Assembly (NCBI RefSeq): GCF_024029435.1
Contig: NZ_CP097118.1
Span: forward strand, 496,001 to 560,000
Source: Fructilactobacillus hinvesii
GTDB taxonomy: Bacteria > Bacillota > Bacilli > Lactobacillales > Lactobacillaceae
Reading direction: 5' to 3'
DNA length: 64,000 nucleotides
This document shows positions 2,852-5,784 of the stretch, one piece after another. Numbering within the stretch: the stretch's first letter is position 1; the number at the start of each line of letters is the position of its first letter. The notes below the pieces were generated by a model. That model ran no database searches. It worked only from the letters and a program-made list of their open reading frames with translations, and was not told the origin of the DNA. The translations under genes were made by a program, and so were the position numbers.

Positions 2852-4186
2852 TTACCAGCCAATCTTGTGACTAGGTTTGGCAATTTTGCCGGCCGCCAAT
2901 TCCGAACAAGCCTGCTTAATCGTCGCAAAGGCTTGTTGCAACGTTTCCTCGGGAATAACCAAGGGTGGTTGGAAGCGTAACACGTTACCCCGGACGGTAA
3001 TCATGAGCACCCCGAGTTCAAACAAGCGGGTGATCAGCATCGAAGCAGCTTCAGAATCGGGTTGTTTCGTAGTGGGATCTACAACGTCAACCCCACCGTT
3101 TAAACCATAGATCCGGACGTCGCCAAGAAAATGATAACGCTCGCGTAAATTAAGGAAGAACTGACGAGCTTGCTTTCCAAGCCGGGCGCTACGTTCGACT
3201 AAGTGTTCTGATTCAATGACATCGAGGGTGGCGTTGGCAGCCGCCGTTGTAACCGGGTTTCCGGCCGTTGTATAAACGTTCCCAGGGGCTGCCAATGAAT
3301 CAATTACTTCTGCTCGTCCAATCACGGCACTCAATGGCAAACCAGAGGCAATCGACTTTCCCACCGCAATTAGATCTGGATGAACGTCTGGGAAGTGATC
3401 AATGCTCCACATTTTCCCGGTTCGGCCGAGTCCTTGGTTAACTTCATCGACGGCAAACAAAATCCCGTGGTCCTGACAGAACTGGTAGACCTGGTTCAGA
3501 TAGCGTTCGGGAGCCTTACAGAAGCCACCGTCTCCCTGAATCGCTTCAATTTCCACTAATGCCGTTTCATCGGCTGGTAAGTAGGTTTCAAACGGTTGTT
3601 TAAATGCCGCAAACATGCGGTCGCAGAATTCGTCTTCCGTTTCGTAGGACAGTTTATCCCAATGACTGGGGAATGGAACTTTTACTACCCCCGGCAGTAA
3701 CGGTCCAATCTTGCGCGCCATGTTCAAACTAACGGCTGAAGTCGTAATGGAACCATAGGTAGAACCATGGTAGGCACCGGTAAAACTCACTACGTTTTGC
3801 CGCCCAGTGTAGGCCCGAGCAAACTTGATAATGGCATCATTAGCGTCTGAACCAGAGTTACCGAACGCGAGCTTAGCTGGACCTTCAATTGGAGCCAGAG
3901 CCGTTAGGCGTTTGACTAACTCAATTTCAGGTTCGGTGGCAAAGTAAGCCGGCGTGTATTGAATTAAGCGAGCCGCTTGTTCCTGAATGGCTTTAACCAC
4001 GTGCGGATGCGCGTGCCCAGTGTTCGTTGATGAGGCACTTGAGAGTAAATCAATGTAGTCGTTTCCATCTGCGTCGGTTAGAATGGCACCTTTACCGGAT
4101 TTGAGGACCACGTCAAAAAATTTAATCCGGCTGGCAGGAGCCAGTCCTTCCGATTCTTGGTGCAGTAGTGATTCGTTCCGTGACAT
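2852..4186 (-). CDS. Class-III PLP aminotransferase-fold enzyme, isoleucine 2-epimerase-like
   Basis: 444 residues of the class III aminotransferase fold. Seen: the GNSGSDANDAIIKFARAYTGR phosphate-binding region (split here for length), VDEVNQGLGRTGKMW with Asp247, PLP lysine K277 in AVGKSIASG, and RFQPPLVIP. From memory, the nearest characterised relative is the branched-chain amino acid 2-epimerase (isoleucine 2-epimerase, EC 5.1.1.21) of Lentilactobacillus buchneri/otakiensis, which shares DEVNQGLGRTGKMW and the ending KIGW. 4-aminobutyrate or ornithine aminotransferases are more distant options. The inferred role is interconversion of L-isoleucine/L-valine with D-allo forms. A TTAAAGGAGG site precedes the ATG. 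A consensus promoter, a Val/Ile/Leu-rich leader ORF and a terminator lie upstream, so the gene looks attenuated by branched-chain amino acid supply, which fits the enzyme assignment. Confidence 0.85.
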   Translation of the reverse strand: MSRNESLLHQESEGLAPASRIKFFDVVLKSGKGAILTDADGNDYIDLLSSASSTNTGHAHPHVVKAIQEQAARLIQYTPAYFATEPEIELVKRLTALAPIEGPAKLAFGNSGSDANDAIIKFARAYTGRQNVVSFTGAYHGSTYGSITTSAVSLNMARKIGPLLPGVVKVPFPSHWDKLSYETEDEFCDRMFAAFKQPFETYLPADETALVEIEAIQGDGGFCKAPERYLNQVYQFCQDHGILFAVDEVNQGLGRTGKMWSIDHFPDVHPDLIAVGKSIASGLPLSAVIGRAEVIDSLAAPGNVYTTAGNPVTTAAANATLDVIESEHLVERSARLGKQARQFFLNLRERYHFLGDVRIYGLNGGVDVVDPTTKQPDSEAASMLITRLFELGVLMITVRGNVLRFQPPLVIPEETLQQAFATIKQACSELAAGKIAKPSHKIGW

Positions 4187-4223
4187 AACAGTTCCTCCTT
4201 TAATAGTTAAACAACAAATACTG

Positions 4224-4314
4224 AAAAAGCCCCCAGCTACTTGACTGGGGGCTTTTTGGCTGAACTGTTATGTGTAAATCAAGCCCGTCCCACAGTCGGA
4301 AGCTGTGCGGACGG
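4224..4314 (-). promoter_or_regulatory. Transcription attenuator of the epimerase-like gene
   Basis: Between the leader ORF and the enzyme gene lie two strong hairpins. The first (4281-4314) pairs CCGTCC-GCACAG with CTGTG-GGACGG just after the leader stop codon. The second (4224-4257) is a canonical terminator, AAAAAGCCCCCAG/CTGGGGGCTTTTT. The 3' arm of the first ends GGGCTT, which can pair with AAGCCC in the 5' arm of the terminator, giving a mutually exclusive antiterminator. The leader ORF itself can form a third hairpin (4368-4377 with 4343-4352). The layout matches ribosome-mediated attenuation; the exact switching order is inferred. Confidence 0.78.
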
Positions 4315-4326
4315 TAGAGTGACAAA

Positions 4327-4410
4327 TTAGGCCGGCGTCACGTTATCATCCGCATGGTGCAAAATGACGGATAATAAAATGACCATTGATGGTTGGAAAC
4401 GCTGTGCCAT
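4327..4410 (-). CDS. Leader peptide, branched-chain amino acid type (27 aa)
   Basis: A short ORF, too small for routine gene calling, starting at ATG 4410 with AAAGAGG eight bases upstream and ending in TAA at 4327. Residues 10-17 read VILLSVIL: seven branched-chain residues in eight codons, the hallmark of ilv/leu/ivb leader peptides, where a ribosome stalled by lack of charged tRNA changes RNA folding. It starts about 23 bases after the inferred transcription start of a consensus promoter and is followed by hairpins and an intrinsic terminator before the epimerase-like gene. It probably has no function except its own translation. Confidence 0.8.
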   Translation of the reverse strand: MAQRFQPSMVILLSVILHHADDNVTPA

Positions 4411-4439
4411 GATTGTCGCCTCTTTCAGTAATTTTTCTA

Positions 4440-4468
4440 AGTATAGAACGAGGTTTACCAACTGTCAA
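4440..4468 (-). promoter_or_regulatory. Consensus promoter for leader peptide and epimerase-like gene
   Basis: Minus strand: -35 TTGACA (4463-4468), 17-base spacer, -10 TATACT (4440-4445). The transcript would begin near 4433. Confidence 0.8.
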
Positions 4469-4581: not shown

Positions 4582-5784
4582 ATGGCGGTTAACGTGTTAT
4601 TCATCTTTTTGTGTTCGATTCTGGTCTTTGTCATGACACCGGGGCTAGCATTTTTCTATGGGGGAATGGTTCCGCGGCGTGACATTAACAATACGTTAAT
4701 GGCCGTTTTCATCATGTGTTGTGTTCCCGTGTTATTGTGGGTGATTTGCGGATACTCATTATCGTTTTCGGGTAACAATTGGAACATCATTGGGAACCTG
4801 CACAACTTCTTTTTAAACAACGTGAAGTTTAACGCCGGGGCAGCTACCACCGGGGGAAGCATTACCAACATTGCCTTTTTGATTTTTCAAATGATGTTTG
4901 CGTTAATCACCCCGGCCCTGTTTGTTGGAGCGGTGGTGGAACGAATCAACTTCCGATTTTTGATTTTGTTCGTAGTGCTGTGGTCGTTATTCGTGTACTA
5001 CCCACTGGTTCACATTGTGTGGGGTGGGGGTTTCTTACAAAGCCTCGGAGTATTGGATTTTGCCGGGGGACTGGTAGTGCACATTAACGCCGGAGTGACA
5101 GCTCTGTTGCTGGCTTACTTTCTTGGACCACGTTTGATTCAGGAAAAAGGGAGCCCAAAGAGTTTGAGCTGGGTGTTACTTGGAACGACCTTTCTTTGGA
5201 TTGGTTGGTATGGATTTAACGCTGGGTCTGCCTTTGCCATCAACGGCATCGCAATGCAAGCCATGTTAACCACGACGGTCGCAACCGCAACGGCAATGTT
5301 AGTTTGGGTCATTCTCGACGTCTGTACGAAACGGAACGCTACTTTATTTGGAATTTGTTCTGGAGCCATTTGTGGTCTGGTTGCCATTACACCGGCCTGT
5401 GGATTTGTTTCCGTTGAGAGTTCCATGATTATCGGTGCCATTGCTACGATGGCGAGTTACGGATTCATCACCGTGATTAAACCCAAGCTCAAGATTGATG
5501 ACACGTTAGACGCTTTTGGTTGCCATGGAATTTCTGGAATCGTCGGCAGTATCTTAACCGGACTTTTCGCTAGCAAGGCAATTAACCCAGCTGTAACGCA
5601 CAACGGTTGGCTCGCCGGTGGAAACTTCCATCAGTTTGGCATTCAACTGGGGGCAACGTTGTTCACAGTTGCCTTTACCACGGTTGTGGTTACGATTATC
5701 ATCGTGGTCCTGAAGCAAGTGATGAGCATGCGGATGCGTCATGAGGAAGAAATTGTGAAACGAGAAATGGCTGATTTACAGTAA
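4582..5784 (+). CDS. amtB: Ammonium transporter (Amt/MEP/Rh family)
   Basis: 400 residues with eleven predicted membrane helices. Seen: FFYGGMV in the first helix region, ITPALFVGAVVERINF, the Amt signature LDFAGGLVVHINAG carrying the conserved Asp and first pore His, and the second pore His in FGCHGISGIVGS. It conducts ammonium/ammonia across the cytoplasmic membrane for assimilation. The C-terminal tail is about 30 residues and charged, where a PII protein would bind, but no glnK gene follows; a terminator comes right after. The ATG has a GGGGAG site. A GlnR-like box lies upstream, so induction under nitrogen limitation is likely. Confidence 0.96.
   Translation: MAVNVLFIFLCSILVFVMTPGLAFFYGGMVPRRDINNTLMAVFIMCCVPVLLWVICGYSLSFSGNNWNIIGNLHNFFLNNVKFNAGAATTGGSITNIAFLIFQMMFALITPALFVGAVVERINFRFLILFVVLWSLFVYYPLVHIVWGGGFLQSLGVLDFAGGLVVHINAGVTALLLAYFLGPRLIQEKGSPKSLSWVLLGTTFLWIGWYGFNAGSAFAINGIAMQAMLTTTVATATAMLVWVILDVCTKRNATLFGICSGAICGLVAITPACGFVSVESSMIIGAIATMASYGFITVIKPKLKIDDTLDAFGCHGISGIVGSILTGLFASKAINPAVTHNGWLAGGNFHQFGIQLGATLFTVAFTTVVVTIIIVVLKQVMSMRMRHEEEIVKREMADLQ

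Follow-up and report, generated by a model that had tools for sequence, protein, structure and literature searches.

The window analysed here is a 64,000-nucleotide stretch of the Fructilactobacillus hinvesii genome, and the leader locus described below lies on its minus strand. A gene for a 444-residue class III PLP enzyme (2852..4186), which resembles isoleucine 2-epimerase by sequence kinship, is preceded by the Shine-Dalgarno sequence AAGGAGG (4194..4200) and, further upstream, by the parts of a putative leader. The leader starts with a candidate sigma-70 promoter (4440..4468; 11/12 matches), with TTGACA at 4468-4463 and TATACT at 4445-4440 separated by 17 nt. It is followed by a Shine-Dalgarno-like AGAGG (4419..4423), which reads AAGGAG in four close relatives (L082-L085), and by an ORF of 27 codons (4327..4410; ATG at 4410, stop codon TAA at 4329-4327) with the predicted translation MAQRFQPSMVILLSVILHHADDNVTPA. 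The same frame appears in the mechanical ORF list, there from an upstream TTG and with a length of 44 aa. Residues 10-17 of the predicted peptide, VILLSVIL (4383-4360), are Ile, Leu or Val at seven of the eight positions. An intrinsic terminator of 14 pairs (4224..4257) marks the predicted 3' end of a short transcript. Promoter hexamers and spacing are identical in the four close relatives, where ORF length and terminator are kept as well. A sequence-only reading of this DNA had already proposed the promoter, the 27-codon ORF with its ribosome site, the VILLSVIL stretch and the terminator, and we find all of them where it had placed them, on the minus strand.

A census of the window for ATG-started ORFs of 15-45 codons, with nested starts counted separately, gave 574 small ORFs, 30 of them with a Shine-Dalgarno-like element. 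Just one of these 30, the leader ORF, holds at least seven Ile, Leu or Val in eight residues, and a terminator comes after it at a distance of no more than 130 nt. Relative to shuffled sequences, the leader RNA (4434-4216) has a folding z of -8.3, and 0 of 200 shuffles were as good. In the promoter scan, no minus-strand promoter was found between the terminator and the epimerase gene; the scan did list a weak minus-strand site (9/12) at 4399-4371, within the leader ORF and 5' of the terminator. A T-box was ruled out at this leader, the whole-window Rfam scan at gathering cut-offs having given a tRNA only and no RF00230. The gene adjoining the epimerase gene, in divergent orientation, encodes an ammonium transporter (4582-5784; TIGR00836, 398 bits), and the upstream region of F. 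florum (L089) contains reverse-strand sequence that, by eye, resembles this transporter gene.

The best PDB sequence matches of the enzyme are isoleucine 2-epimerase chains (5wya, 4ysn and 5ll2, 556 bits each), followed by a broad-specificity amino-acid racemase at 317 bits. The only NCBIfam name it receives is PRK08593, 'aspartate aminotransferase family' (692 bits, cut-off 570). Its identity is 57% with the homolog from Lentilactobacillus otakiensis and 77% with the one from Fructilactobacillus lindneri. Aligned with the former, and with residues counted by hand, the enzyme has Asp219 (codon 3532-3530) and Lys277 (codon 3358-3356) at the places of Asp222 and Lys280, the catalytic residues of L. 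buchneri ILEP (PMC6053490). The structural database matches and the retention of both catalytic residues bear out the earlier naming of the gene product as an isoleucine-2-epimerase-like PLP enzyme. Judged by its sequence, the enzyme groups with the isoleucine 2-epimerases, and it probably interconverts D- and L-branched-chain amino acids (BCAA). Production of D-BCAA is reported for strains that carry an ILEP homolog of 53-60% identity with an adjoining permease, and two strains with homologs more than 70% identical had no activity or D-BCAA production (PMC6053490); because of these two strains, activity is not settled by sequence alone. A single match to the epimerase gene was found in the window genome, as in every one of the 10 genus genomes, which their named relatives assign to Fructilactobacillus.

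An ORF with an Ile/Leu/Val run, preceded by a Shine-Dalgarno element, lies before the epimerase gene in eight of the 10 genus genomes (G000, which is the window genome, G001, G002, G004, G005, G006, G007 and G009). Such a leader is also present before the epimerase gene of Philodulcilactobacillus myokoensis (L005), from a sister genus, and was not seen before that of F. florum (G003), F. sanfranciscensis (G008) or Lactobacillus sp. Sy-1 (L006). Loci duplicated across the two collections were counted once (L002/L086, F. lindneri; L003/L087, F. sanfranciscensis; L004/L088, F. fructivorans; L007/L089, F. florum; L009/L090, strain S2-2). Recurrence of the ORF and its codons in relatives had been named as a test of the leader, and its finding in most genus genomes and also in a sister genus answers it in the leader's favour. 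Outside the run the predicted peptides differ, five being 27 aa long with HADD near the end, two 34 aa, one 27 aa and one 39 aa. Peptide length (27-39 aa), sequence and C-terminus are variable, and the run and the overlapping RNA helices are constant, the densest eight residues holding 5-7 Ile/Leu/Val across 14 leaders. Codon changes in the leader ORFs are mostly non-synonymous (synonymous versus non-synonymous 12 versus 87 and 29 versus 99, over all sequence pairs), and codon evolution is thus no positive evidence of coding.

In the remaining 70-odd named loci, the same scan returned runs that were weak, lacked a terminator or were part of neighbouring genes, and ten further loci showed no leader ahead of the epimerase gene. 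An ORF of more than 400 aa ends shortly before the epimerase gene in 65 of the 80 named loci, one of which (L065) encodes a non-permease. Runs of Ile/Leu/Val in Leuconostoc, such as MLETIISVTGLIVILIMTTIFA, were rejected as leaders, since they end at the stop codon of the preceding gene (coordinates of L052, L059 and L069). We also searched 397 genomes of the family with two models. Model R1 matched 12 of them (five of the genus and seven others), and model R2 matched eight (seven of the genus and one other); both counts are too low, as the diverged leader of G009 escapes both models. Among the outside matches, seven loci (L111-L114, L116, L117 and L127) have terminators and no Ile/Leu/Val leader, and another, L115, has a terminator in the alignment view, which is the only view used for it; L118 and L119 were not among the loci inspected.

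A second set of leaders was found on the gene for the partner permease. The permease gene starts within about 25 nt 3' of the epimerase gene in four of the 10 genus genomes (G004, G006, G008 and G009), and in F. lindneri, F. fructivorans and strain S2-2 the leader precedes the epimerase-permease gene pair. The best NCBIfam model for the F. lindneri permease (L002) is BcaP, a branched-chain amino acid transporter, at 395 bits and below the cut-off of 690. In the window no permease gene lies beside the epimerase gene; the ortholog is located elsewhere in the genome (G000:C1:1163034-1164494). A separated permease ortholog of this kind, 84-85% identical, occurs in G000, G001, G002, G005 and G007, and in all five it has a leader of its own, consisting of 28 codons (in G000, MVQMSASLIALFIFVSLITRRVDNAGRL) and then a terminator. 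The two genes are also apart in G003, where the permease has no leader (L096), so that five of the six genomes with separated genes have a leader on the permease. The permease leader of the window genome (L091) has a run broken by Phe; it was missed by the automatic scan and found by eye. Model R2 was built from the five permease leaders and two more, and its listing of the G000 permease leader is therefore by construction.

The leader RNA can be divided into six segments with alternative partners. Segment A (TTATTATCC, 4369..4377), which includes two tandem TTA codons for Leu, pairs with segment B (TGCGGATGATAA, 4343..4354), and B can take as its partner either A (GGATGATAA) or C (TGCGGATG). 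Segment C (CCGTCCGCACAG, 4303..4314) can pair with B or D; its coordinates in the window were taken from CGTCCGCA, the motif CACAG having an earlier copy in L001, L082 and L083. Segment D (GACTGTGGGACGG, 4285..4297) can pair with C or, as an antiterminator with one mismatch, with E (GACTGTGGG:CCCCCAGTC). Segment E (AAAAAGCCCCCAGTC, 4243..4257) is the 5' arm of the terminator, whose arms are E and F. The set of helices A:B, C:D and E:F excludes the set B:C and D:E, and vice versa, and the free fold of the window leader RNA is A:B, C:D and E:F. With segments picked by eye and bulges allowed, all six are possible in 14 of 14 leaders: A lies within the run or adjoins it, B is found where the ORF ends or shortly past that point, and C and D are downstream. 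In these 14 leaders, A:B measures 7-10 pairs, B:C 8-11, the core of C:D 4-10 and D:E 7-12.

For A:B and B:C, pairs were counted in an alignment of 13 leaders (L090 excluded; L005 has a gap in A). A:B was paired in 98.1% of 108 alignment cells as compared with 34-62% in slid controls, and B:C in 89.4% of 104 cells as compared with 15-59%. The observed percentages were reached by 0 of 500 column shuffles for either helix. A covariation score was reached by 0 of 500 shuffles for A:B and 29 of 500 for B:C. Both partners have changed in two pairs of A:B and in one of B:C, numbers reached by 364 and 360 of 500 column shuffles, respectively, and one B:C pair is open in seven of the 13 sequences. The pair changes amount to few events, because the five epimerase and the five permease leaders are each close relatives.

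We then modelled the effect of a ribosome on the fold. For each codon, the RNA covered by a ribosome with its A site at that codon was removed and the rest folded as far as the last nucleotide of E; the readout was the probability of upstream pairing by E, with 150 dinucleotide shuffles per leader as controls. With any of codons 9-16 (M V I L L S V I, 4363..4386) in the A site, the window leader had a predicted D:E probability of 0.48-0.54, as compared with 0.21-0.24 on codons 1-8 and 0.18 at the stop codon; at codon 20 it was 0.46. The stall site put forward in the sequence-only reading (4383-4360) overlaps the codons at which the model switches (4386-4363). In 12 of 14 leaders, including that of the window, the model favours the antiterminator with the ribosome on the Ile/Leu/Val run, with on-minus-off differences of 0.31-0.92 and 0-12 of 150 shuffles reaching the observed value. 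The effect is moderate for L001 (0.53 versus 0.18; 6 of 150 shuffles). Two leaders did not switch in the model, namely the window genome's own permease leader L091 (difference 0.10, reached by 50 of 150 shuffles) and L095 (0.00, 79 of 150). Within the 12 switching leaders, Ile, Leu or Val make up 102 of 178 ON codons versus 27 of 163 OFF codons, a contrast whose Fisher value of 4e-15 overstates independence since the sequences are related. The commonest ON codons are TTA (38), ATT (33) and GTC (16), and in several leaders the ON window extends past the run. In L086, L088, L095 and L005, the antiterminator already stands at 0.60-0.80 with the ribosome at the start codon. These leaders would read through untranslated, which is a weakness either of the fold model or of the idea.

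In three other relatives a different type of leader precedes the corresponding genes. The Rfam search covered 24 of the 80 named loci, and a scan for the T-box core motif all 80. An Rfam T-box was found directly 5' of the operon of BcaP-like permease and ILEP in Ligilactobacillus pabuli (98.5 bits), pobuzihii (91.1) and acidipiscis (74.7), the latter two scoring below the gathering score of 93. The three T-boxes lie at L010 1216-1459, L041 1182-1426 and L025 1199-1437. In all three we read the specifier column as CUC (Leu), the triplet also of the B. subtilis ilv-leu leader (PMC2494555). As a control for the reading of the specifier, T-boxes with specifier AUG lie divergent from the epimerase gene, on the minus strand, in L005 (2577-2343) and L009 (2590-2347), and precede apparently methionine-related genes, whose best NCBIfam matches, below cut-off, are S-methylmethionine permease and the MetQ/NlpA lipoprotein. 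The core motif matched at four of the 80 loci, close before the permease only in the three Ligilactobacillus; the match in L027, at a distance of some 1.1 kb upstream of the permease, was left out of the count. By Rfam, two other Ligilactobacillus (L038 and L048) have no T-box 5' of the operon, and the T-boxes of L049 and at the end of L038 lie 3' of the epimerase.

The genus has most likely to obtain BCAA from outside, as Pfam KARI_C, a domain of ketol-acid reductoisomerase, was found in none of the 10 genus genomes (14 of 14 control genomes positive) and Aminotran_4, the branched-chain aminotransferase family, likewise in none (13 of 14 controls positive). In L. fermentum, the permease beside ILEP is reported to import both D- and L-BCAA, and its ILEP to let a BCAA-auxotrophic Lactococcus lactis grow on D-BCAA; the reaction is described as reversible, and storage and later use of D-BCAA have been proposed (PMC11907396). 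For the Fructilactobacillus enzyme, the D-to-L direction is the most likely one, given the predicted induction on starvation and the synthetic and transaminase enzymes not found in the genus.

Taken together, we consider it highly probable that the leader acts by ribosome-mediated transcription attenuation and senses whether Leu, Ile and Val tRNAs are charged, and that the enzyme it induces most likely serves D-to-L salvage. When BCAA are ample, a translating ribosome would clear the run, A:B and C:D would form (or B would be covered), E:F would then form and transcription would stop near 4224. If BCAA run short, the ribosome would stall on V-I-L-L-S-V-I and cover A, upon which B could pair with C, D would be released to pair with E, the terminator would be blocked and the epimerase gene transcribed. 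The induced enzyme would then recover D-Leu, D-Val and D-allo-Ile imported by the permease. BCAA attenuation had been the proposal of the sequence-only reading, and the conserved leader, the stall scan, the permease leaders and the Leu T-boxes all lend it support; our confidence is reduced by the shuffle control for the pair changes and by the four leaders that are ON at the start codon. We accordingly read the locus as D/L BCAA salvage in auxotrophs placed under ribosome-mediated attenuation.

Other explanations need to be weighed. The small ORF might encode a functional hydrophobic peptide, membrane-bound or toxin-like, with the terminator simply ending its gene and the epimerase being expressed by other means. 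The predicted peptides of L086, L088 and L005 do resemble single membrane spans by eye, the terminator is directly 3', and the non-synonymous changes preserve hydrophobic residues. Yet the peptide varies from 27 to 39 aa while the run and the RNA helices persist, the same design stands before the partner permease in five species, and the promoter scan listed no minus-strand promoter between terminator and gene from which the epimerase might otherwise be expressed; we therefore regard this explanation as quite unlikely. Just as improbable, in our judgement, is that the attenuator is real and mainly sets basal expression or responds to slow translation generally rather than to Leu, Ile and Val. 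Ser, Phe, Ala and Met codons do fall within the ON windows, and L091 and L095 show no switch in the model, but against this stand the enrichment of Ile/Leu/Val in the ON windows (102/178 versus 27/163), with TTA, ATT and GTC the commonest codons, the Leu T-box on three orthologous Ligilactobacillus operons, and the action of homologs of both proteins on these same amino acids (PMC11907396). That a short ORF with a hydrophobic run happens by chance to precede a terminator is hardly credible: such ORFs do arise by chance in large genomes, but this one is the single case among 30 Shine-Dalgarno-preceded small ORFs in the window, recurs in eight of 10 genus genomes and is met again at the partner gene in five.

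The alternative that deserves the most attention, though we still hold it to be improbable, accepts attenuation and reverses the enzyme, so that induction would lead to D-amino acids being made from L-amino acids as a signal, a store or a modifier of the cell wall. In its favour, lactic acid bacteria with ILEP homologs of 53-60% identity are reported to accumulate D-BCAA from the start of growth (PMC6053490), and the reaction can run both ways (PMC11907396). Synthesis of D-forms during a shortage of L-forms would, however, deepen starvation; moreover, the tested synthetic and transaminase families are absent from the genus, and ILEP supports growth of an auxotroph on D-BCAA (PMC11907396). Attenuation with salvage of D-forms thus remains our preferred reading. 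On its wider meaning, we lean only slightly beyond even towards the view that D-BCAA are a reserve recovered under starvation control, that two unrelated sensors of tRNA charging were put independently on the same racemase-importer pair (the six-segment attenuator in Fructilactobacillus and Philodulcilactobacillus, and the Leu T-box in Ligilactobacillus), and that both genes had the attenuator once apart.

The mechanism itself is already known. In the enterobacterial his attenuator, pairing of AB, CD and EF leads to termination, and BC and DE lead to read-through when the ribosome covers A (PMC10989985); the window leader has the same six segments A-F in the same order and with the same logic. 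While the his leader uses His control codons before a biosynthetic operon, the window leader has Leu, Ile and Val codons, a Gram-positive host and, as its targets, a racemase-type enzyme and an importer. Leader-peptide attenuators for BCAA are described for ilv/leu operons in E. coli and Salmonella and for ilv-leu of S. aureus, with a Leu-rich peptide of 26 aa, and are predicted in Lactococcus lactis, Corynebacterium glutamicum and Streptococcus (PMC5794164). Like the window leader, they combine a short Ile/Leu/Val-rich ORF with a terminator and an antiterminator before BCAA genes (PMC5794164), but they control synthesis, whereas the Fructilactobacillus leader precedes genes for D/L interconversion and uptake. 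Leu T-boxes, for example that of yvbW, sense tRNA charging and precede branched-chain amino acid transporters (PMC2494555); the window leader would share the sensing of tRNA charging, but would act through a predicted translated ORF. The ILEP-AAP operon of lactic acid bacteria has the same enzyme family and the same kind of APC permease as Fructilactobacillus, its genes being together, while the two genes of the window genome are apart, each with a leader. Regulation of that operon is not treated in PMC11907396, whose main text makes no mention of regulation, attenuation, a T-box, a leader or starvation. The sequence-only reading had known of no such leader for an epimerase, and we likewise found neither an attenuator nor a T-box described for one in the listed titles and abstract beginnings from the open-licence literature. 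As far as could be seen, both the target and the use of the design twice, on partner genes that lie apart, are new. Beyond that reading, the present analysis adds the six-segment switch, the further leader of the partner permease gene and, in Ligilactobacillus, the Leu T-boxes before the orthologous operon.

How a gene is regulated says something about what it is for. If a shortage of charged Leu, Ile or Val tRNA induces the enzyme and the importer, then their role in such a shortage would be recovery of the L-forms, and such starvation-inducible control would support, for Fructilactobacillus, the recovery half of the D-BCAA storage proposal. If true, leader-peptide attenuation would here act on a racemase and a transporter, in a genus in which no ketol-acid reductoisomerase was found and hardly any biosynthesis, or none, would remain to be controlled. 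It also gives a regulation-based reason to ask whether proteins of this group annotated as PRK08593-type 'aspartate aminotransferase family' are BCAA epimerases.

Lastly, we note two observations apart from the epimerase leader. In F. sanfranciscensis, the locus L103 (G008:C8) has a short ORF, MINHNSKTNIYYFAYFWRLAD, with the aromatic run YYFAYFW, followed by a terminator-like hairpin with a T run; it precedes the gene for a paralog of the L002 permease (43% identity) and, by eye, resembles a leader peptide for aromatic amino acids on a transporter gene. In the window, a single frame of 472 aa (36-1454) joins a PfkB kinase domain (residues 2-227) to a ribose 5-phosphate isomerase A domain (293-459), a predicted fusion that would suit the use of ribose. 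Its PfkB part begins at profile position 69, so that the true start may precede the window's listed ATG.
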